Shown: positions 14,858-31,870 of the stretch, piece by piece
How the letters are laid out: each line of letters opens with the position of its first letter
How positions within the stretch are numbered: position 1 is the stretch's first letter
Assembly (NCBI GenBank): GCA_029863585.1
Contig: JAOTVC010000017.1
Coordinates: forward strand, 1 to 32,699
Length of the DNA: 32,699 nucleotides
DNA from: Alphaproteobacteria bacterium
Lineage (GTDB): Bacteria; Pseudomonadota; Alphaproteobacteria; SMXQ01
Direction of reading: 5' to 3'
The notes under the pieces: generated by a model
Told to the model about the DNA's origin: nothing
Database searches by the model: none
What the model saw: only the letters and a program-made list of their open reading frames with translations
Position numbers and translations under genes: made by a program

Positions 14858-15901
14858 ATGAACCTCATTTTGCGTGGAACGGTGCTTGCCACCGCTGTGG
14901 CCGTAGCATCCCTTTCCCAGTCTTTCCCCGCGCAGGCCGCGGATGTTTTCAAGAATAAGACAATCAAGGTTTCCATCGGCTTCGGACCGGGCGGCGGGTA
15001 CGACGCTTACGGGCGCCTGTTGGCGCGGCACTGGGGGCCCCATATTCCCGGTCGTCCGCAGGTGATCGCACAAAACATGCCGGGCGCCAGCAGCCTCAAG
15101 GCCGTGCAGTACCTTCAGACGGCCGCCCCCAAGGACGGTACGGCCGTGGTCATCTTCAACTTCGGCCAGATCACCAATTCGATCGTGAATCCATCCAAGA
15201 CGATCAAGGTGGATTTCCGGAATTTCGCCTGGATCGGGTCGATGAACCGCGACGTCTCCGTGTGCTACGTCTGGAAGGCGCGCTTCCCCGCGATCAGGAA
15301 CGCCGCCGACCTCAACAAGGTCAAGACGATCAACTACGGCCTTACCGGTGTCGGTTCGGCCTCCTACTTCAACCAGGCGATTCTGCTTGGCGTTTTCAAT
15401 GCACCGCTCAAGCAGGTCAAGGGCTACAAGGGCTCGAAAGAAAAACAGATCGCGATCGAACGCGGCGAGCTCGACGGCGATTGCGGTGACTGGACCAGCG
15501 TTCCCGACGACTGGGTTCGCGACGGCAAGGTTACCTACCTGATGAAGTCCTCGCCCTCGACGCCCGAAGGACTCAATCCGGCCATCCCCTACGCCGGCGA
15601 CCTCGCAGCGACGGCGGAAAAGAAACAGATTCTCAAGCTGCTGTCGGCGGCGGGGGAAATCGGCCGCCCGTTCATCACCCGCAAGGAAGTGGCGGCCGAC
15701 CGTTTGAAAGTCCTGCGCGCCGGCTTCGATGCGGCCATGAAGGACCCCAAGCTGTTGGCGGAATCCAAGAAGATCGGACGCCCGATCTCGCCGATGACCG
15801 CAAAGGAGGCCGTGGAAACCCTCTCGGAGCTTTACGCGATGCCGACCGACATCATCGCCAAGGCCAAGGCGATTCTGCCCGGTCAAAAAAAGAAGAAGTA
15901 G
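14858..15901 (+). CDS. TctC/Bug-type tricarboxylate transporter substrate-binding protein
   Basis: A 347-residue periplasmic binding protein of the Bug/TctC family. It has a Sec signal peptide (residues 1-27, cleavage after AQA), followed by the family core: VSIGFGPGGGYDAYGRLLARH, IPGRPQVIAQNMPGASSLKA, and a C-terminal region ending in ELYAMPTDIIAKAKAIL. Such proteins bind carboxylic acids (citrate, aromatic carboxylates, amino acids) for the three-component TctABC transporters. No TctA or TctB permease gene is in the window, so it is an orphan binding protein. The tail KKKK is unusual but sits after the structural end. A strong hairpin follows the stop. Nearby aromatic-acid genes suggest an aromatic ligand, without proof. 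Confidence 0.87.
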   Translation: MNLILRGTVLATAVAVASLSQSFPAQAADVFKNKTIKVSIGFGPGGGYDAYGRLLARHWGPHIPGRPQVIAQNMPGASSLKAVQYLQTAAPKDGTAVVIFNFGQITNSIVNPSKTIKVDFRNFAWIGSMNRDVSVCYVWKARFPAIRNAADLNKVKTINYGLTGVGSASYFNQAILLGVFNAPLKQVKGYKGSKEKQIAIERGELDGDCGDWTSVPDDWVRDGKVTYLMKSSPSTPEGLNPAIPYAGDLAATAEKKQILKLLSAAGEIGRPFITRKEVAADRLKVLRAGFDAAMKDPKLLAESKKIGRPISPMTAKEAVETLSELYAMPTDIIAKAKAILPGQKKKK

Positions 15902-22435: not shown

Positions 22436-23746
22436 CTATGGGAGACAGGTCCTGAAGCCGGCGAAGACGTCGCGCCGGTGGGCTTCGAAATAGTTCCGAT
22501 AGGTGCCGTGGATCATTCGCCCGCGGGTCGTCCAGGCGCCGCCGCGCAGCACCTTGGTGTCGCCGAACAGCATGGCCGAATATTCCTTATAGGCGTCTGC
22601 GGCGAAACCGGGGAAGGCGTTGAACGTGTCCGCCGTCCATTCCCAAACATTGCCGAGCATCTGGCGGCAGCCAAACGCACTGTCGCCGGCGGCCAACGCC
22701 GCCACGTCGACCGGTCCCAGGGCCCGGCCGTCCAAATTGGCGCGGCTCGGGTCGGGCGGCGCCGCGCCCCACGGGTAGCGTCTCTTGAACGGCGACAAGG
22801 TGCCGTCGGCGGCCGGCTCGCCAAGGGCCGCCGCTTCCCATTCCGCTTCCGTCGGCAGCCTCAACCCGGCCCAACGGCAATAGGCCGCGGCTTCGAACCA
22901 ATTGACATGAATGACCGGCTCGTCGGGCGGCAGCGGCAATGTACGGTCGAACCGCCGTACCAGCCAGTCGCCAGGCCCGTTGCGCTGCCAGTACACCGGA
23001 TGCTCCGCGCCGGCCTTCCGGCGCCAGGTCCAGCCGTCGGCGGTCCACAACGCTTCCCGGCCATAGCCGCCATCGTCGACGAAATCCTGGAACGCCCGGT
23101 TGGTGACCGGCGCCTTGGCGATTGCGAACGGCTCCAGGGCCACCGGATGGGCCCATTTTTCATTGTCGAACAGGAACGGCGCGTCCCGAGGCGCCCCCAA
23201 CTGGAACGTCCCCCCCGGCACCTCGGCCCATCCCGGGTGAGCCCCCCTCGCCCGCTCGGCTGCGACATCGGTGGCAACGGCCAAGACAGGCGTTGGATAG
23301 GAAAGCGTCTGGCGGGCCCAAAGGAAGGCTTCGGTGTGCATATCTTCATGGAAGATGCCGAATTGATAGATGAAGCTGTCCTGCTCCGTCGCCATGCCGC
23401 CCTCGAGGCGTTCGGCCAGGCGGTCGTAAACAGCCTGCAGGTAGGACAGCGTCTCGGCCCGGGTGAGCAGCGGCAGGTCCCACCTGAGGTCATGGTCGAT
23501 GGCGATGGAATCGTAAAGTTTGTCGGCACTCTCGCCGATTACGGACTCGTGACCGTAAAGCTGGCGCAGGATGAAGTATTCGTAAAAATAGGCGACATGG
23601 GCGATTTCCCAGCGCATCGGATTGACGGTGGGTAGTTTGGGCCCCATGAGCTGGGCGTCGTCCAGGTCGCGGACCAGTTCCAAGGTCCGGTTCCGGGCGT
23701 CTTGCATGTTATCGATCAAACGTGCGGTACTGACAGGCGCGGTCAC
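22436..23746 (-). CDS. senA: Selenoneine synthase SenA-like (EgtB family, DinB + FGE domains)
   Basis: A 436-residue two-domain protein of the EgtB family: an N-terminal DinB-like four-helix bundle (about 5-155) carrying the three iron-binding His (His50 in WEIAHVAYF, His133 and His137 in GIFHEDMHTEAF) and a C-terminal formylglycine-generating-enzyme-like domain (about 175-436: RLPTEAEWEAAA, MLGNVWEWTADTF, VLRGGAWTTRGR). EgtB joins cysteine-type sulfur to hercynine; SenA is the relative that joins a selenosugar to hercynine. I call SenA rather than EgtB because the next gene is a SenB-type protein and the third is selD; no egtA/egtD is near. The start is uncertain: GTG 23746 or TTG 23758, both without a clear ribosome-binding site. 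It diverges from senB by only 15-27 bp. Confidence 0.82.
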   Translation of the reverse strand: MTAPVSTARLIDNMQDARNRTLELVRDLDDAQLMGPKLPTVNPMRWEIAHVAYFYEYFILRQLYGHESVIGESADKLYDSIAIDHDLRWDLPLLTRAETLSYLQAVYDRLAERLEGGMATEQDSFIYQFGIFHEDMHTEAFLWARQTLSYPTPVLAVATDVAAERARGAHPGWAEVPGGTFQLGAPRDAPFLFDNEKWAHPVALEPFAIAKAPVTNRAFQDFVDDGGYGREALWTADGWTWRRKAGAEHPVYWQRNGPGDWLVRRFDRTLPLPPDEPVIHVNWFEAAAYCRWAGLRLPTEAEWEAAALGEPAADGTLSPFKRRYPWGAAPPDPSRANLDGRALGPVDVAALAAGDSAFGCRQMLGNVWEWTADTFNAFPGFAADAYKEYSAMLFGDTKVLRGGAWTTRGRMIHGTYRNYFEAHRRDVFAGFRTCLP

Positions 23747-23773
23747 GGGACAATCCAAGGTCGGAGAAAGCGG

Positions 23774-24730
23774 GTGAAGATTAGCCTAATCACGCCAGCG
23801 GACAAACTGTCCAAAAGCGGCAACCGGACAACCGCGCTTCGCTGGGCCCGAATGCTGCGCGAGGCGGGCCACCGCGTGCGGATCGGAATGGACTATGGTG
23901 GCGAGGACGCGAAACTGATGATTGCCATTCACGCCTGGCGCAGCGCCGACGCCATAGGACGCTACCGGGCCCGCTTTCCGGGCGGGCCGTTGGTGGTCGG
24001 TCTCGGCGGGACCGACGTTAACACGTTCCTGAAAACCCATCCGGAAACGACGCTCCGCTCCATGGAGATGGCGGACGCCCTGATTTGCCTGCACAACCTC
24101 ATCGGCGAGGCCCTGCCGGCGGCGCTCCGAAAGAAGCTCCATGTGGTCCACCAATCTGCCTTGCCCCTGCCCGGGCCGCGGCATCCGTCCAAACGGAACT
24201 TCGATGTCTGCGTCATCGGTCATCTGCGCGATGAGAAGGATCCCTTCCGGACGGCCCTGGCCGCCAGGCGCCTGCCGCGCCAATCAAAACTCCGGGTCTT
24301 TCACCTGGGCAAGGCCCACACCTCCGAATTCGCCAGCCGTGCCAAAGCCGAGATGAAGATCAACCCGCGCTACCGGTGGCTCGGTGAAGTGCCGGGGTGG
24401 CGGGTTCGGCGGGAGCTGGCCAAGACCCGGGCCATGGTGATCAGTTCAAATCAGGAGGGCGGCGCCAACGTGGTGTCCGAAGCCATCGTCGCCGGCGTGC
24501 CGGTGATTGCCAGTGACATTGCCGGAAACGTCGGCCTTTTGGGGCGCGACTATCCCGGCACCTACCCGGTTCGAGATGAAGCCGCGCTGGCGCATCTGCT
24601 GGACCGTGCGGAAACCGAGCCCGCATTCCTCGAACGCCTGGAGCGTCATGTGCGGAAGCTGCAACCGCTGTTTCGACCCGCCCACGAAAAGGCCGCCCTG
24701 AAACGGATTGTCGGTTTGGTCACGCGATGA
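23774..24730 (+). CDS. senB: Selenosugar synthase SenB-like glycosyltransferase
   Basis: A 318-residue GT-B-fold glycosyltransferase. SenB makes a selenosugar from selenophosphate and a UDP-sugar in selenoneine biosynthesis. Features that match, from memory, the SenB family: N-terminal SLITPADKLSKSGNRTTALR (split here from WARMLREAGHRV), AIHAWRSADAI, LVVGLGGTDV, then the second Rossmann domain with CVIGHLRDEKDPF and a nucleotide-sugar site SNQEGGANVVSEAIVAGVPV. The start is GTG 23774, with GGAG seven bases before it; the frame extends further left only through the 5' end of the opposite gene. Its 3' end overlaps the convergent selD fusion gene by 11 bp. The pairing with an EgtB-like gene and selD makes the assignment much stronger than similarity alone. 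Confidence 0.83.
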   Translation: MKISLITPADKLSKSGNRTTALRWARMLREAGHRVRIGMDYGGEDAKLMIAIHAWRSADAIGRYRARFPGGPLVVGLGGTDVNTFLKTHPETTLRSMEMADALICLHNLIGEALPAALRKKLHVVHQSALPLPGPRHPSKRNFDVCVIGHLRDEKDPFRTALAARRLPRQSKLRVFHLGKAHTSEFASRAKAEMKINPRYRWLGEVPGWRVRRELAKTRAMVISSNQEGGANVVSEAIVAGVPVIASDIAGNVGLLGRDYPGTYPVRDEAALAHLLDRAETEPAFLERLERHVRKLQPLFRPAHEKAALKRIVGLVTR

Positions 24731-26987
24731 GAGTGACGGGTTCCAGATGCTCGCTTTCCGCCATGACGCGGCCGATGACGGCTGCTTCCGCATAGCCGAG
24801 ATCACGAAGCTCTCGCAAGCAGGGCTCCGCCTGTTCGGCGGGAAGGCTGGCCAGCAAGCCGCCCGATGTCTGGGGATCGAAAACCAGCGGATAGCGTTCA
24901 TGTTTCTGGGCTTCGCTCAAGTTTCGTATCGCCCGGCGCAACCGAACGTTCGCCGGTTGCAGCGAACTGAGGATCCCGAGGCGCACCGTTTCCTGGGCGC
25001 CGTCCAATATCGGCAACTTTTCGAGGTCGACCTCTACGTCCACGTTCGAGGCCTTGGTCATCTCCACCAAATGACCCAATAGCCCAAATCCGGTGATATC
25101 CGTGCAGGCGCTGGCGCCATGATTGAAGAGGCATCGGGCCGCGTCCCGGTTCGACTGGACCATGCAGCTCAGCGCTCCCTCGATCCACCTTCCCTTGGCT
25201 TTCTGCTGCATGTCGGCGGCGAACAGCGTGCCGGTGCCAAGCGGCTTGGTGAGAATCAATACCTCGCCCTCTGTCATGCCGCCCTTGCGCAATATGTGTT
25301 CTTTGTCGGCCAAGCCATTGATCGAAAATCCCAATGCCAGTTCCGGTCCTTCGCTGGTATGGCCGCCCACCAGGGTCGCGCCGGCCGCGTTGAGGACCTT
25401 CATGGCGCCGGTCATCATTTCACGGAGGGTCGTTTCGACCTTCGCCTCCAGGCCGTAGGGAACGGTTGCGATGGCGAGCGCCGTCTGAGGCTCGGCGCCC
25501 ATGGCGAAGATGTCGCTCAGGGCGTGGTTCGCGGCAACTTGCCCGAACACGTAGGCGTCATCGATGAAGGCCCGGAAATAGTCAACCGTATAGACGGCGA
25601 CCTTGCCGTCGGGGATCTGAACGACGGCCGCGTCGTCCGGCGCGTGCAGGCCGACCAGAACATCATCGTTGCCGAGCGGCTCCAAACCGGCCAGGGCCTG
25701 GGACAGCACATTGGCCCCCACCTTGGCGCCGCAGCCGCCGCAACGCATGGCGATGGCCGAGATGTCTTTGAGCGTGGCCTGGTCGGCAAGGCCGGGGTCC
25801 AACGGCGTCGCCTCCTCGGCGGCCATCTCGGGCAATTCATTGAACTTTCTCATGAAGCGCCGATCGATCCAGTCCTTCCACCTCCAGACCCAGCGGCCTT
25901 CGGCCGACCATCCCCATTTGGCCGCTACGGCGCGCTTGTCACCGGCGCTGATGAGAACCAGGAAGGCGCGTTGCGGAACAAAGGGCCGGGCCGGCCGGCC
26001 GACCAGGACACGGCGCAGGTTCGCGGTCAGCGGCGGTCCCTGGCGGACCGCGAAGACGCCGGCCTTTGGACGCGGGTGATTGACGACCGCGGCAATGTCC
26101 CCGGCCGCGAAGACGTCCCCATGGGAGGTTGATTGCAGCGTGTCACCGACCTGGATGAACCCGTTCTCATCCACGTCGAGGCCGGACTCGCGAAGCCAGG
26201 GCGGCGCTCCGGCCGCCGTGACCCAAAGGATCTGGTCCAGTTCGATGGTCTTGCCGCCGGCGATGGTGATTGCGCCGTGCGTCACTTTTTCCGCCGGGGC
26301 GCCGGTGTGGACGCGCACCCCCCGCGCCGCGAAGAGGCGTTCGAAGCGGCGGCGCACGGCGGCGCTGACATTGGGCAGGATGGTCTCTGACTTGGAGATC
26401 AGATGGAACTCCAACCGGTCCGTATCCTGGCCCCGTTCCGCAAGGAGATTGCCGAGCCGATGATGCGCGGCCAACAGCAGTTCGGTGCCGCCCGCGCCGG
26501 CTCCGACGACGCCGATGCGGTGCGGGCCCGGGCTGTCCAGCACGCGGTCCAGAAAACGTTGCCAACGATCGACAAAATTGTTGATCGGCTTGACCGGGGT
26601 AGCGAATTCCTCGGCCCCGGGAATGCCGTTGAAACTGGGCGTCGAACCGATATTGATCGAAAGGAGGTCATAGGGAACCGGAGGGCGCCCCTTGCAGACG
26701 ACCTGCTTGGCCTCGAGGTCGAGCATGGTCGCCTCGTCGTGGTACAGGCGCGCGCCGGCGAACTGGCAAAGCGGGCGCAGGTCGATATGCACCTCGTCGA
26801 AATCGTAGTGGCCGGCGACGTAACCCGGCAGCATGCCCGAATAGGGCGTGTGCACGTCGCGTGCGATCACCGTCAGGCGGACCCCGGACAGCGGCTTCAT
26901 GCCGAACTTCTTGAGCAGGATCACGTGGCTGTGTCCGCCGCCGACGAGGACGAGGTCTTTGACGATGGCGTTTTGGCTGGATTTCAT
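24720..26987 (-). CDS. selD: NDH-2-like FAD oxidoreductase fused to selenophosphate synthase SelD
   Basis: A 755-residue fusion. Residues 1-385 are a pyridine-nucleotide-disulfide oxidoreductase related to type II NADH dehydrogenases: FAD motif LVGGGHSHV (14-22), NAD(P) motif GVVGAGAGGTEL (159-170) and the second FAD motif DVFAAGDIA (291-299). Residues about 405-755 are selenide,water dikinase, which makes selenophosphate from selenide and ATP. The catalytic pair is Cys419 and Lys422 in CGGCGAKVG (a Cys, not selenocysteine), with TVDYFRAFIDDAYVFGQVAANH (split after 20) and GGHTSEGPELALGFSI following. It fills the SenC/SelD role in selenoneine synthesis and could also feed tRNA or protein selenation. 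It lies 22 bp after the permease gene of an ABC transporter, same strand, so it is probably in that operon. Confidence 0.92.
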   Translation of the reverse strand: MKSSQNAIVKDLVLVGGGHSHVILLKKFGMKPLSGVRLTVIARDVHTPYSGMLPGYVAGHYDFDEVHIDLRPLCQFAGARLYHDEATMLDLEAKQVVCKGRPPVPYDLLSINIGSTPSFNGIPGAEEFATPVKPINNFVDRWQRFLDRVLDSPGPHRIGVVGAGAGGTELLLAAHHRLGNLLAERGQDTDRLEFHLISKSETILPNVSAAVRRRFERLFAARGVRVHTGAPAEKVTHGAITIAGGKTIELDQILWVTAAGAPPWLRESGLDVDENGFIQVGDTLQSTSHGDVFAAGDIAAVVNHPRPKAGVFAVRQGPPLTANLRRVLVGRPARPFVPQRAFLVLISAGDKRAVAAKWGWSAEGRWVWRWKDWIDRRFMRKFNELPEMAAEEATPLDPGLADQATLKDISAIAMRCGGCGAKVGANVLSQALAGLEPLGNDDVLVGLHAPDDAAVVQIPDGKVAVYTVDYFRAFIDDAYVFGQVAANHALSDIFAMGAEPQTALAIATVPYGLEAKVETTLREMMTGAMKVLNAAGATLVGGHTSEGPELALGFSINGLADKEHILRKGGMTEGEVLILTKPLGTGTLFAADMQQKAKGRWIEGALSCMVQSNRDAARCLFNHGASACTDITGFGLLGHLVEMTKASNVDVEVDLEKLPILDGAQETVRLGILSSLQPANVRLRRAIRNLSEAQKHERYPLVFDPQTSGGLLASLPAEQAEPCLRELRDLGYAEAAVIGRVMAESEHLEPVTLIA

Positions 26988-27009: not shown

Positions 27010-28527
27010 TTATGCCCGTCCGGCCTGGGTGCTCAGGTGCAGGCGGCTCCGAATGCGGCGGGACAAAGCATCGATTCCCATGTTTAGAATCGCCGTGACC
27101 ACGATCAAAATCATTGCCCGGTCGAGGCGAATATCGGATAGCGCGCTGTCTATGTAGAATCCTAGGGTGGCAATTCCAAGGATCCCCAGGATCGCCGTCT
27201 CCCGCATGATGACCTCCCAACGATAGAACAGGAACGCCAGGAACTGTCCGTAAATACGGGGCACGATCTCGAAACCGTAAAGATTGAGACCGCGAGGGCT
27301 GTCGGGCCGCAGCCGTACCTCGTCACTGAAGCGTCCCACGAGATGGCCGATAATGGCGCCGTTGTGAAGTGACAGGGCGACAATGGCCGGCAGCATGGAC
27401 GGCCCCCAGAGCTGCAGGAAGATGTAGGCGAGGATGAACTCCGGCGTCGAGCGCAGGACCACCAGAAACACATGTCCCACGGTCCGCCCCGCCGGGCCGA
27501 AGAATTTTTGCGAAACCAGCGGGAAAAGGACGAGGGCAAGGACGCCCGTGGCGACCAGGGCGATCTGAGTCAGCAGCAATGTCCCGATCATGCCGAGCAG
27601 CGCCTGGTCCACCAGCATGGTCCAGGCCCAGTCACCCATGTTGCTCCAGGTCTGGCCGTCGAGAAGGCCGCCCTGGCGCAACGGCGAAGGCACGATATCC
27701 ACGGTCAGGAACCTGACGATGTTGCCCAATTCTATGGCCTGGCCGCCGCCCAACAGGAACGGGGCAGCAAGCAGATAGAACCCTACGAGTTTCGGCCGCA
27801 TCCAATAGCGCAAGGTGGCGATGAGCACGTAGAAAATGATCAGCAAGGCCGCGGCTTCGGAATAGTTTCCTTCGCTGAAGGCAGTCTCCAGATGGAATCC
27901 CAGGGTCGGCAAACCGACGAATCCCAAAACGGTGGCGGAGCGCAGCCCGCATTCGAATCGGTAGCTGGTGTAGGTCTTGAGATGCACCCAGACATCCGGT
28001 AGGCGGGCGAAGAAAAAGGCGGAGATGATGCCGGTCCCCTTCGGCAAGCTCCGGAGCGCCGGCAATTCCGCTTCCTCCAGCGTTTCCGCATAAACCTTGG
28101 CGCAGATTCCGGCGTAGGGAATGGCGATGGCCAGCACGCCGGTAAGCGGCGACAGCCCCAGAATCTGCAGGAAAATCAGGGCCCAGAACAATTCGTGGAT
28201 GGCCCGGGCGGATGCGCAAACCCAACGAACGGGCCCCAGATGGAACACCTGGGACAGCAGGAACCCCCCGACGGCGCCCAGCGCCACCCCTGATAACGCA
28301 AAGGCTATGGTTTGCACGATGACCAGGCCAATTCCGGAGACCGCGGCGAAATCAGGCGTCAAAGCCCCCCAGGCCATGCGCTTCATTTCCGACCAGGGGT
28401 CGAGAGTGGTCACGGAAATATCCGCGAACAAGAGGCAGATGACCGCCACGGCGAGAAATCCCAGGCTCGTCTTCACAGCCGACGAATAGCGAGGGGCCCT
28501 CGGCGCGGATAGGATTGAAACCGCCAT
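27010..28527 (-). CDS. PhnE-like ABC transporter permease, two fused copies
   Basis: A 505-residue inner-membrane protein made of two tandem PhnE-type permease halves (about 1-255 and 260-505), each with several membrane helices and a cytoplasmic loop in the EAA position (EEAELPALRSLPKGTG in the first, GFEIVPRIYGQFLAFLFYR in the second). A single chain thus replaces the usual permease dimer. In the phosphonate family PhnE pairs with PhnC and PhnD, which are the two genes upstream here. The start is ATG 28527, nine bases after GGGA and 5 bp past the ATPase stop; TTG 28536 would overlap that stop (TTGA). selD follows 22 bp later. Selenium oxyanion or a related anion is the likely cargo by context; phosphonate or phosphite is the alternative. 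Confidence 0.82.
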   Translation of the reverse strand: MAVSILSAPRAPRYSSAVKTSLGFLAVAVICLLFADISVTTLDPWSEMKRMAWGALTPDFAAVSGIGLVIVQTIAFALSGVALGAVGGFLLSQVFHLGPVRWVCASARAIHELFWALIFLQILGLSPLTGVLAIAIPYAGICAKVYAETLEEAELPALRSLPKGTGIISAFFFARLPDVWVHLKTYTSYRFECGLRSATVLGFVGLPTLGFHLETAFSEGNYSEAAALLIIFYVLIATLRYWMRPKLVGFYLLAAPFLLGGGQAIELGNIVRFLTVDIVPSPLRQGGLLDGQTWSNMGDWAWTMLVDQALLGMIGTLLLTQIALVATGVLALVLFPLVSQKFFGPAGRTVGHVFLVVLRSTPEFILAYIFLQLWGPSMLPAIVALSLHNGAIIGHLVGRFSDEVRLRPDSPRGLNLYGFEIVPRIYGQFLAFLFYRWEVIMRETAILGILGIATLGFYIDSALSDIRLDRAMILIVVTAILNMGIDALSRRIRSRLHLSTQAGRA

Positions 28528-28532
28528 CGCGC

Positions 28533-29186
28533 TCAATCCCGATAGAGAAAATCGAGATCGGACCGTGTCAGGTCCCGGGCCGCCGCATCCAACGCGATGC
28601 CGCCGTCCTTGATGCCGATGATCCGAGTCGAGAATTCAAGCGCCAGATCCACGTCGTGCATGGCCAGGATGACGGTTTCGAAGGTTTCCCTGAGCGCCTC
28701 GAGGACAACGCGGGACTGGTGGTTGTCGGTGGCGGAAACCGGTTCATCGCCGAGCACCGCGTCACCGCCCTGGAATATCGCCCGGCATATGGCCGTCCGT
28801 TGTTGCTGTCCACCCGACAGTTCGCCGGCCCGCTCAAACAGTTTGTCGCCAAGCCCCAGGCGTTGGACGATGGGATAGATACGCTCCACTTCCTTGCGGC
28901 GCGGCCAAACCAGGTTCATGAGATTGTAGGCGGCGGAATGCCGGTGCAGGCTGCCCATATAGACATTGTGGAAGACGCTTAAGCTGCGGACCAGGCCTGG
29001 GTCCTGGGGGATCAGGGCGGCGTTGCCGTCGTAGCGCCTTTGCAGGACGGAGAGCAGGGTCGATTTACCGGCCCCGCTCTCCCCGACGAATGCCACCCGC
29101 TCACCGGCGGCGACGGTGACGGAGATACCGCGAAGTACGGGATCTCCATTGTAACCAAGGTCTTCGTTATCGAGCTGGAAAGCCAC
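28533..29186 (-). CDS. PhnC-like ABC transporter ATP-binding protein
   Basis: A 217-residue ABC ATPase, compact for the family. Walker A is GESGAGKSTL (35-44), the Q-loop is LIPQDPGLV, the signature is LSGGQQQR (123-130), Walker B is VLGDEP (144-149), and the switch His177 is in LAMHDVDLALEF. All catalytic residues are present. The start is GTG 29186, only 2 bp after the stop of the binding-protein gene, so the two are translationally coupled. It powers the permease encoded just downstream. The D-loop reads SATD rather than the common SALD. Confidence 0.88.
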   Translation of the reverse strand: MAFQLDNEDLGYNGDPVLRGISVTVAAGERVAFVGESGAGKSTLLSVLQRRYDGNAALIPQDPGLVRSLSVFHNVYMGSLHRHSAAYNLMNLVWPRRKEVERIYPIVQRLGLGDKLFERAGELSGGQQQRTAICRAIFQGGDAVLGDEPVSATDNHQSRVVLEALRETFETVILAMHDVDLALEFSTRIIGIKDGGIALDAAARDLTRSDLDFLYRD

Positions 29187-29188
29187 CT

Positions 29189-30064
29189 TCAGTCAATCAG
29201 CTTGATCTTTTTGGCCACGTCCACGATGGGTTGGTAGTCGGAATTCGATGCCGGGATGAAGCTTTTCCTGGGAAAAGAGGCCAGGAGATCGGGATCCTTC
29301 ATGCCCAGCAGGGCGGCCTTGACCTTCGCTTTGAACCCGGCTTTCCACCGCTTATCGACATCGCCGCGGATGGTCCACTGATAATCCGGGTATGGCGGCG
29401 TTTTCCAGATGATGGAAACCTTCGCCGGATCGATCTTCCCGGCCTTCAATTCGTTTTGCCAGACCGTGAAATTGACCGCCCCCACCTGGTAGGCGCCGGA
29501 TTGGACGAGGGCGATGGTCTTGGAATGATTGCCGCTGAAACCGACCTTTGTGAACACCTTGCCCGGCGCCATATTGAAAGCTTTACGAATGTGGTGCTCC
29601 GGCATCAGACGGCCCGACGTCGACCCTTTGGAACCGAAGGTGAAAGTCTTGCCCGCGATGCCTTTCGGGAATGTGTCCGACGCTTTCAGCCCGGTGCTTG
29701 CATGGGCGATGAAATATGTCACGAAGGCCTGATCCTCGTATCCCTGGGCTATGGCTTGTGAGCCGGGAACAAGATCTCGGGCGCGCACCCCGGAAAGGCC
29801 CCCGAACCAAGCCAGCTGAACTTGGTTGTTGCGGAACGCCGTGACCGCCGCCGCATAGGACTTGACCGGGATGTACTTGGTCTCGACACCGAGCGCCCTG
29901 GACAGGTAAACGGCGACCTTGTCGAAGCGTTGGCGCAGGCGCGCCGAGTCCTCGTCGGGTATGGCGGTGAAGACGAATGTATCGGCGCTGGCCTGCTTCG
30001 CGGTGCCGCCGAAGAGCAGCATTACGGCGGCCGAACACAACAGAAGTTTCTTAATGGACATCAT
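29189..30064 (-). CDS. PhnD-like periplasmic binding protein, candidate selenium oxyanion transporter
   Basis: A 291-residue binding protein with a Sec signal peptide (cleavage after ASA, about residue 27). It has the PhnD-family pattern: FTAIPDEDSARLRQRFD, VTAFRNNQVQLAWFGGLSGV, AIAQGYEDQAFVTYFIAH, FTFGSKGSTSGRLMPEHHI, then VGFSGNHSKTIALVQSGAYQVG. From memory, a branch of this family sitting next to selD has been catalogued as putative selenate ABC transporter binding proteins; I cannot verify that here. The start is ATG 30064 with GGGAG five bases upstream (an in-frame GTG lies at 30088). It heads the operon with the ATPase, permease and NDH-SelD genes. A phosphonate-type ligand remains possible. 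Confidence 0.85.
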   Translation of the reverse strand: MMSIKKLLLCSAAVMLLFGGTAKQASADTFVFTAIPDEDSARLRQRFDKVAVYLSRALGVETKYIPVKSYAAAVTAFRNNQVQLAWFGGLSGVRARDLVPGSQAIAQGYEDQAFVTYFIAHASTGLKASDTFPKGIAGKTFTFGSKGSTSGRLMPEHHIRKAFNMAPGKVFTKVGFSGNHSKTIALVQSGAYQVGAVNFTVWQNELKAGKIDPAKVSIIWKTPPYPDYQWTIRGDVDKRWKAGFKAKVKAALLGMKDPDLLASFPRKSFIPASNSDYQPIVDVAKKIKLID

Positions 30065-30652
30065 GGCGTCTCCCTGAATGATGGTCACGGCAAAGCGTGC
30101 GACGGAGTCTTTTCGGAAAAACGGGGCGTCAGGCGTTCAACCTAATACGCGGCCAAGTGGCAGTGGCAGAGTAACTGCTCGTGGCCTGGCTGATCAATAG
30201 CTCGCGGCCCGTAGCCGGATGAAAAAGCGAGGACCGACGGGCTTCGGTCGTACAGATCGGCGATGAAGGCCGTCACCAATGCCGCACATCACGACTGCGG
30301 TCGCTGGCGGACCAAGAGGGACGAAACCTGAAACCAGCCGCGCCGACGACAACGCGACGTGGTTCGCCCTTACACATGAACATCAACTGGATGTCCTTTT
30401 TTACCCAAAGCGGGCACACGCTGTCGCGTAGACTCGGGTGGGGTTCCCTCCTAATATCCACGCTCACAGAAAGTGTCTGGGTAGGCGCCAAACGCGCCAC
30501 GGCCGAAGGACGCGTTCAATGCAGGCTTGCGGCGATCATTGCCGCCGACACGGCCGCCTCTGGTCTTTGCAGATGGGCGGAAAAGCGGCCACGCATGCGT
30601 TCAGAAGGAAACGAAAACCCCGGGCCCACGCAATCCTAGAGGGAGGTTTCCC
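30065..30652. other. Gene-free region between divergent transporter operon and second TctC-type gene
   Basis: This 588-bp region should carry the promoter of the selenium transporter operon (leftwards) and that of the TctC-type gene (rightwards). I see no intact gene. It does contain a likely remnant of an adenylate cyclase N-terminus (about 30512-30600) and, upstream of it, an imperfect inverted repeat around 30391-30418 (ATGTCC ... AAAGCGGGCAC). Confidence 0.5.
30512..30600 (+). pseudogene. Possible remnant of class III adenylate cyclase N-terminus
   Basis: In one frame the translation reads QCRLAAIIAADTAA, close to the RRLAAILAADVAGYSRLMG opening of many alphaproteobacterial class III adenylate/guanylate cyclases. 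A +1 frame change then gives WSLQMGGKAATHAF, which fits the YSRLMG... part. After that no similarity is visible, and no catalytic domain follows. It is therefore a short decayed fragment with a frameshift, not a gene. The call rests on about 20 residues. Confidence 0.4.
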
Positions 30653-31870
30653 ATGAAATCGGCGTATGCTTCTCTACGGACCAGGTCCGCAAAACAATTC
30701 CTCATCCCCATCCTGGGCATCGGTCTCGTCGCCGGCATATTCACCACGGCGATGTCCTCCGTATCGCGGGCCGACCCGGTCAGCGACTTCTACAAGGGTA
30801 AACGCTTGAACATCCTCATCGGCTTCGGCGCGGGCGGTGGCTACGACACGACGACACGCCTGGTGGCACGGCACTACGGCCGGCACGTGCCGGGGCGTCC
30901 GACCGTCGTCGTCCAGAATATGCCGGGCGGTGGCAGCCTCAAGGTCCTCAACTTCCTCTATAACCAGCCCTCGCTCCGCGATGGCGCTACGCTCGGTGTG
31001 TTCAACTCCGCCGCGGTGCTCGAGCCGCTCTACGGCAACAAGAAAGCGCAGTTCGAGGCGCGGAAGCTTTCCTGGATCGGCAGCATGCACAGCGACGTTC
31101 AGGCCTGCGCCGTATGGAAGGGCGCCGGGGCCGGCATCAAGACGTTGCAGGACATGATCAAATCCAAGAAAACCGTCGTGTTCGGCTCAACCGGTCCGGC
31201 AGCGCCAACCAGCCTCTTCCCGCTTTTCTTCAAGAACGCGCTGGGCGCCCCCATCAAGGTGGTGACCGGCTACAAGGGCACCAAGGACGTCAATCTGGCA
31301 ATGCAACGCGGCGAGGTAGACGCGACTTGTGGCATGTTCGAATCCACCGTTCGGGGGGCGTTCTACAATGACTTCAAGTCGGGCGACCTGGTCATGTTCG
31401 TCCAGGTCAGCATGGGTCTCCCGGTCCCCGATATCTTCGCAAAGGCGACGCCGGTCACCGCCCTGCTCACAACGCCGGAGCTTAAGAAAGCCGCCCAGTT
31501 GGTGTTCGGGCCGTCGGCGCTGACCCGCCCCCTTTCGGCGGCGCCGGGCGTGCCGAAGGACCGGGTCGCGGCGTTACGCAAGGCGCTTCTCGACGCGATG
31601 AAGGATCCCGCGATGATCGCGGACGGAAAGAAGATCAAGGTGACCTTCAGCCCGATCGCGGGCGACCAGGTCGAAAAGATGATCGAGGAATTCTACGCAA
31701 CGCCGACCGACGTGGTGAAGAAGGCCTACGCCTACACCCACACCCCTAGAGGGGGACCGTGTCGCGACGCCGTTCCGCGGGCCGCGCCTTATGAGAGCGT
31801 CCCATGCCGTTCAAGATGTTCCGACCAAAGCCTAAGGCTGGCTGGCGCAGGCCCGGACATTGGATTTTGA
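30653..31870 (+). CDS. TctC/Bug-type substrate-binding protein with aberrant C-terminal tail
   Basis: A 405-residue periplasmic binding protein of the Bug/TctC family. The long signal peptide ends at about SRA (residue 40). The core motifs are ILIGFGAGGGYDTTTRLVARHYG, VPGRPTVVVQNMPGGGSLKV and the conserved end EEFYATPTDVVKKAYAY (split by motifs). The ATG has GAGGGAGG upstream. It is a paralogue of the gene at 14858 and again lacks TctA/TctB partners nearby. The last 45 or so residues are Pro/Arg/Cys-rich, unlike the family, and a TAG at 31747-31749 lies in another frame exactly where the normal end is expected, so a late frameshift is likely. It is divergent from the selenium transporter operon. 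Confidence 0.82.
   Translation: MKSAYASLRTRSAKQFLIPILGIGLVAGIFTTAMSSVSRADPVSDFYKGKRLNILIGFGAGGGYDTTTRLVARHYGRHVPGRPTVVVQNMPGGGSLKVLNFLYNQPSLRDGATLGVFNSAAVLEPLYGNKKAQFEARKLSWIGSMHSDVQACAVWKGAGAGIKTLQDMIKSKKTVVFGSTGPAAPTSLFPLFFKNALGAPIKVVTGYKGTKDVNLAMQRGEVDATCGMFESTVRGAFYNDFKSGDLVMFVQVSMGLPVPDIFAKATPVTALLTTPELKKAAQLVFGPSALTRPLSAAPGVPKDRVAALRKALLDAMKDPAMIADGKKIKVTFSPIAGDQVEKMIEEFYATPTDVVKKAYAYTHTPRGGPCRDAVPRAAPYESVPCRSRCSDQSLRLAGAGPDIGF

Follow-up and report, generated by a model that had tools for sequence, protein, structure and literature searches.

Background

How cells take up selenium and convert it to selenide for selenophosphate synthase (SelD) is unsettled. According to a passage of a 2026 review, prokaryotes have no identified specific high-affinity transport system for selenium (PMC13188914). 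For the partner domain of the commonest SelD fusion, the parts of the literature cited here have since 2008 offered no more than a predicted role (PMC2398784, PMC2432076, PMC4561486). The locus described in this report bears on both steps: its operon joins candidates for import and for selenide preparation in four adjacent genes, which makes them testable together. It is located in a stretch of 32,699 nucleotides, called the window below, whose host is probably a marine alphaproteobacterium, judged by its nearest named relatives.

The locus is very probably a selenium cassette, devoted to acquisition and use of this element. What a flavoprotein fused to SelD contributes to such a cassette is the question addressed here. 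As the best single reading we propose, with a slight leaning in its favour, that import is combined with reduction of a selenium substrate for SelD by the flavin half.

Gene content of the locus

Gene identities and operon order, as well as the conserved residues and genomic associations presented below, were read from sequence. The central gene is a single ATG-started open reading frame at 24720-26987 on the minus strand, coding for 755 amino acids. An NDH-2-like flavoprotein (residues ~9-386) is followed in it by selenophosphate synthase SelD/SenC (~407-755). The N-terminal half belongs to NCBIfam TIGR03169 (Nterm_to_SelD; 511.5 bits against a cut-off of 310, residues 11-382), the C-terminal half to TIGR00476 SelD (312.6 bits against a cut-off of 125, residues 414-719), and the Pfam domains Pyr_redox_2, AIRS and AIRS_C are present. 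The initial annotation had described exactly this frame as SelD fused to an NDH-2-like oxidoreductase, of a type already known; both family matches bear this out, and the type was indeed described in 2008 and is covered by TIGR03169. Another family, TIGR04369 (fusion_not_SelD), was rejected, its score of 470 bits being below the curated cut-off of 700. The AlphaFold model of the whole fusion has pLDDT 91.9 and pTM 0.91.

Three importer genes precede the fusion, all on the minus strand. The first (29189-30088) codes for a periplasmic binding protein (SBP) of TIGR04553, "putative selenate ABC transporter substrate-binding protein" (377 bits against a cut-off of 250). It is followed by a PhnC-like ABC ATPase of 217 amino acids (28533-29186; TIGR02315 151.7 bits, below the cut-off of 266), whose gene overlaps by 4 nt that of a PhnE-like ABC permease of 508 amino acids with two PhnE-type stretches (27010-28536; TIGR01097 196 bits, below the cut-off of 216.7). 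The permease gene lies 22 nt upstream of the fusion. Because the genes share one strand and their gaps or overlaps do not exceed 22 nt, the four are considered a single importer operon, SBP-ATPase-permease-fusion, in which the fusion comes fourth.

On the other side, selD is adjoined by two genes scoring above the cut-offs for a sen cluster: SenA, selenoneine synthase (22436-23758, minus strand; NF041186, 484 bits against 420), and SenB, selenosugar synthase (23774-24730, plus strand; TIGR04348, 395.5 bits against 300). The senB gene is divergent from senA and its 3' end overlaps the 3' end of the fusion by 11 nt. In Variovorax paradoxus, whose sen cluster encodes SenA/SenB/SenC (Kayrouz 2022, via PMC9814287), senA and senB are likewise next to selD. 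The window cluster differs in having its own predicted selenium importer; its SelD/SenC takes the form of a flavoprotein fusion. The protein type is thus known; as far as our searches of the open-access literature show, the operon of sen genes, importer and fusion is an undescribed variant, as no paper linking the Ndh-SelD fusion to a sen cluster and a TIGR04553 importer was found there, nor any biochemical study of an Ndh-SelD fusion.

The draft of the host genome comprises 383 contigs and shows 7% contamination. Elsewhere it carries SelA, SelB beside SelA and tRNA-Sec on the same contig, and, on another contig, EgtD for hercynine supply (TIGR03438, 374 bits against 290.9); MnmH was not found in it. 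An orphan, selenoneine-only role of the fusion in this genome is ruled out by SelA, SelB and tRNA-Sec. Since the fusion is the only SelD detected in the genome, its selenophosphate would also go to SelA/SelB for selenocysteine.

Three elements were absent from the initial annotation: the upstream importer operon, the downstream senA and senB, and Cys416, which completes the CxxC described below. An Rfam scan of the window gave no match. Scans for promoter-like sites (2, against a shuffle mean of 1.3) and terminator-like sites (13, against 7.5) were not used as evidence.

Fold and motifs of the flavin half

Closest structural neighbours of the N-terminal half are NDH-2 enzymes (Z 42-44 over 374-375 residues), followed by sulfide:quinone reductase (SQR, Z ~36) and FSP1 (~32). 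Against the NDH-2 structure 5kmq_D, Z is 42.4 and rmsd 2.2, with 374 aligned residues and 22% identity; by sequence, YjlD and Caldalkalibacillus NDH-2 are nearest. With NDH-2 (e.g. YjlD, 9a63) this half has in common the whole fold of two dinucleotide-binding domains, the FAD and NAD(P)H motifs and the catalytic Glu and Lys. All three nucleotide-binding motifs seen by the initial annotation are kept and conserved (GGGHSH at 16-21, GxGxxGxE at 162-169, GD at 296-297). The Glu of GxGxxGxE (Glu172 in S. aureus) and the nearby Lys correspond to E169 and K371, both present in 47/47 aligned sequences; relative to Caldalkalibacillus NDH-2 (4nwz), this Glu, Lys376 (K371), Ile379 (I374) and Asp380 (D375) are retained. 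At position 198, where an acidic residue would be expected for NADH, conservation is lacking: 10/47 sequences have an acidic residue there, and 7/47 have E.

Such a protein could be a plain NAD(P)H:quinone reductase of NDH-2 type, with the fusion serving only to hold SelD at the membrane next to the importer. Besides the fold and the equivalents of E169, K371 and I374, this is favoured by a predicted helix (365-383) at the position of the first C-terminal helix of NDH-2. The quinone site itself speaks against it. In the alignment to 4nwz, the AQxAxQ motif is replaced by G310 V311 F312 A313 V314 R315, with V311 and R315 in 47/47 sequences (GVxAVR signature). The first Gln of AQxAxQ, which clamps the quinone head according to the relevant part of PMC6167311, is Gln317 and corresponds to this invariant Val. 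Neither AQxAxQ nor AQxAxR or APxAxQ, the main variants among 1762 NDH-2s in the data taken from PMC5299459, is found. Moreover, the chain runs on into SelD at the place of the second membrane helix of NDH-2. In the model the helix 365-383 is followed by a linker and an 11-residue helix 403-413. Quinone reduction is an improbable function of this half. The description "NDH-2-like" is right for the fold and fails for the quinone motif.

The SQR fold is shared as well, and a crystal structure of an SQR with selenide exists (3sz0). Both facts would suit a reverse or regulatory use, in which the flavoprotein removes excess selenide by oxidation, in a detoxification of SQR type, or acts as a redox sensor that gates SelD. 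SQR uses conserved redox cysteines. In the N-terminal half no cysteine is conserved at the level of at least 90% of the aligned sequences (C74 19/47, C98 17/47), and the NAD(P)H-type GxGxxGxE site, intact in the window, is invariant at G162, G164 and E169 across the family. We regard such use as still a little less probable than quinone reduction, and the proposal of the initial annotation that selenide might be the electron donor is disfavoured on the same two grounds.

The SelD half and its CxxC

By its sequence the window protein is a SelD, that is, a putative selenide water dikinase with ATP-dependent selenophosphate formation. Cys419 and Lys422, pointed out by the initial annotation, are indeed present here and in all 58 fused SelDs of the class sample (385 genomes of the class) that keep the region; one more, L096, is truncated and has lost it. 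Together with Cys416, Cys419 forms a CxxC in the active site. This CxxC is found in 58/58 fused SelDs keeping the region and in 0/24 standalone SelDs of the class sample. Among 80 importer loci from named genomes, 43 hold SelD, and the CxxC is present in 28/28 fused (7 of which overlap the class sample) and 0/14 standalone forms; one truncated SelD also has it. The presence of CxxC in fused SelDs was found in 2008 (PMC2398784, as far as its cited part goes), and the present count repeats that finding in a new sample. In the SelD tree fused and standalone forms are parted by one deep split. Because of this single split, the count of 58 to 0 does not represent 58 independent events; it points to one ancient event, kept since. 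Fusions linked to sen genes form one clade with 99/96 support, on which neither the badly cut L121, with its very long branch, nor the omitted L096 has any bearing.

Previously described Ndh-SelD fusions (Zhang and Gladyshev 2008, PMC2398784, PMC2432076; Mariotti 2015, PMC4561486) have, in the parts of these papers considered, the same domain order, an active-site CxxC and Cys instead of Sec. The window fusion differs from them by its place in a sen cluster and importer operon.

Invariance of the CxxC in fused SelDs, its absence from standalone ones and the lost quinone motif would also agree with a built-in thiol reductase: the flavin half would keep the CxxC reduced, so that a Cys pair sensitive to oxygen is protected when cells live aerobically, and would not act on any selenium substrate. 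The N-terminal half is, however, devoid of a conserved dithiol for electron relay as in disulfide reductases, and direct transfer from flavin to disulfide would require close approach. Of the alternatives to selenium reduction this seems the most plausible, although we consider it unlikely.

The importer

TIGR04553 scores above the cut-off in 18/385 genomes of the class, and all 18 carry selenium genes. SelD is present in 17 of them, against 80/385 overall (Fisher p 8.7e-12); in the 18th (G007), the importer is directly upstream of selA-selB. The 80 loci from named genomes, mostly alpha- and gammaproteobacteria and including 8 contigs already in the class sample (recognised by their equal lengths), contain another selenium gene in 50 cases, a raw count. 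For full-length loci the figure is 32/42; the 30/80 loci with no selenium gene in view include 10 on full-length stretches. Where importer and fusion occur together, the fusion lies at most 200 nt behind the permease gene in 33/41 loci, or in 26/34 distinct ones after removal of 7 contigs taken as duplicates for their equal lengths. On this genomic association the importer is predicted to be a selenium oxyanion transporter.

The nearest solved binding proteins are of PhnD, PtxB and HtxB type, thus of the phosphonate and phosphite kind. An importer of these compounds that only rides along with selenium genes might be concluded from them, yet selenium genes accompany it in 18/18 importer genomes of the class sample, and selA-selB, selD-mnmH and sen genes are among its direct neighbours; such a substrate is the least probable of the alternatives weighed here. 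The window SBP is well above the curated cut-off of TIGR04553 (ABC_peri_selen). The NCBI name of this family says selenate, whereas its solved relatives of PtxB/HtxB type point to a predicted substrate of smaller size, for instance the oxyanion selenite.

Standalone SelDs also occur in importer loci. A substitute reductase beside them was looked for and no obvious one was found, strong recurrence being limited to selD, mnmH and the three importer genes; this implies that SelD can in some cases do without the flavin half.

Proposed mechanism

The preferred reading, import with reduction by the flavin half, rests on inference as to what the importer carries, which way electrons flow, what the CxxC does and whether anything is channelled. 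SBP, ATPase and permease would bring in selenium as an inorganic oxyanion, with selenite as the likeliest form. The flavoprotein half would draw electrons from NAD(P)H via FAD and pass them to an oxidised selenium species (e.g. glutathione- or CxxC-bound) at or near Cys416/Cys419, instead of to membrane quinone as in NDH-2. With ATP, the SelD half would convert the selenide so released to selenophosphate, to be used by SenB and SenA for selenoneine. That the oxidoreductase prepares the substrate of SelD was already predicted in 2008 (PMC2432076, in the part cited). The initial annotation had similarly suggested that a selenium precursor is reduced and passed on; this fits the importer in the same operon, the invariant CxxC and the lost quinone glutamines, and stays at the level of that older prediction.

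A more elaborate version, which we offer only tentatively, sees a dedicated, selenium-specific line of import, reduction and activation. A high-affinity importer would deliver the oxyanion to the fused flavoenzyme, which would reduce it on the CxxC of SelD and phosphorylate it without free selenide, the NDH-2 fold having been turned to selenium chemistry by GVxAVR.

Distribution of the fusion and selenium use

Of the 385 class genomes, 61 have TIGR03169 above cut-off and 80 have SelD. The fusion is carried by 59 of the latter, a standalone SelD by 24 and both by 3; with 59/80, the fusion architecture is far beyond chance. Genomic p values given in this report are descriptive only, because related genomes are not independent.

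Selenium in the 59 fusion genomes is used for selenocysteine only (Sec, 28), SeU only (15), Sec and SeU (1), selenoneine and Sec (10, of which 3 have a second, standalone SelD), all three (1) or selenoneine only (2), with no use found in 2. As any of the three products may be involved, the flavin half appears to serve selenophosphate supply and not one product. In the two selenoneine-only genomes (G124, and G011, which is just 77% complete), both with fusion and SenA, neither SelA nor MnmH was found, so that fused SelD here stands next to selenoneine genes in the apparent absence of Sec and SeU genes. Sec machinery was present in all genomes with extended SPS genes according to the cited part of Mariotti 2015 (PMC4561486); these two genomes, and the 15 fusion genomes with MnmH and no SelA or SenA, contrast with that.

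SelD accompanies SenA in 14/14 genomes, in 13 of them as the fusion. A preference of SenA for fused over standalone SelD is not significant (13/59 fusion against 1/21 standalone-only genomes, p 0.099). For five loci (L040-L042, L044, L045) with SenB and no SenA, a new selenometabolite path was considered and rejected, as senA is located elsewhere in all five genomes. Three genomes (G187, G281, G359) have two SelDs: the fusion, which is part of the sen locus, and another, with an in-frame TGA, located elsewhere.

Standalone relatives of the flavin half

Seven standalone homologues of the N-terminal half were found, more distant and all below 42% identity to that of the window. Four are in genomes with a standalone SelD lacking the CxxC, and three in genomes with no SelD match (G165, G035, G145). 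GVxAV is present in 7/7 and the following R in 6/7. Since members with GVxAV occur in genomes with no detected SelD, the flavin half has at least one job apart from SelD, and the existence of standalone homologues shows the domain to be older or broader than its SelD partnership. Those in SelD-free genomes argue against a purely selenium-specific flavin domain. Neighbours of some standalone homologues are other ABC transporters and MerA-like proteins.

Results and Discussion

Three genomes of a single genus (G359, G187 and G281) each carry a pair of SelDs (loci L048/L119, L049/L118 and L052/L117, respectively). The fusion of flavoprotein and SelD sits in the sen locus, which encodes selenoneine and selenosugar synthases (senA and senB), and the second SelD is standalone, with an in-frame TGA at its active site. 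A division of labour between the two SelDs, selenoneine versus selenocysteine, is suggested for this genus. In one family (f105; L042, L044 and L045), three ORFs come after senB: the first is amidohydrolase-like, the second encodes a large subunit of xanthine-dehydrogenase type and the third is 398 aa long, these names being assigned by eye.

Fusions of G030 and G337 (L097 and L099) are strongly diverged, with 25-26% identity to the SelD half of the window's protein; they retain the CxxC active site, as MYCQGCGSK. Within the 385-genome sample of the class, SelA, MnmH and SenA were found neither in the fusion genomes G314 and G370, the latter with a truncated SelD, nor in the standalone-SelD genomes G073, G285 and G079 (L122, L120 and L123). 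These five genomes may use selenium otherwise, or their assemblies may be incomplete.

Flavoproteins of GVxAV type also occur standalone (L093 and L127, L128, L129, L130 and L131). Three genomes of this set (G165, G035 and G145) gave no SelD match. Several of these flavoproteins neighbour ABC transporters of YnjB type (NF008633) or PhnD type, or large MerA-like fusion proteins.

In the window, the operon is adjoined by an ORF with a weak match to TctC-type proteins of tripartite tricarboxylate transporters (30647-31870, forward strand), which the ORF at 14858-15901 (forward strand) resembles, as judged by eye.
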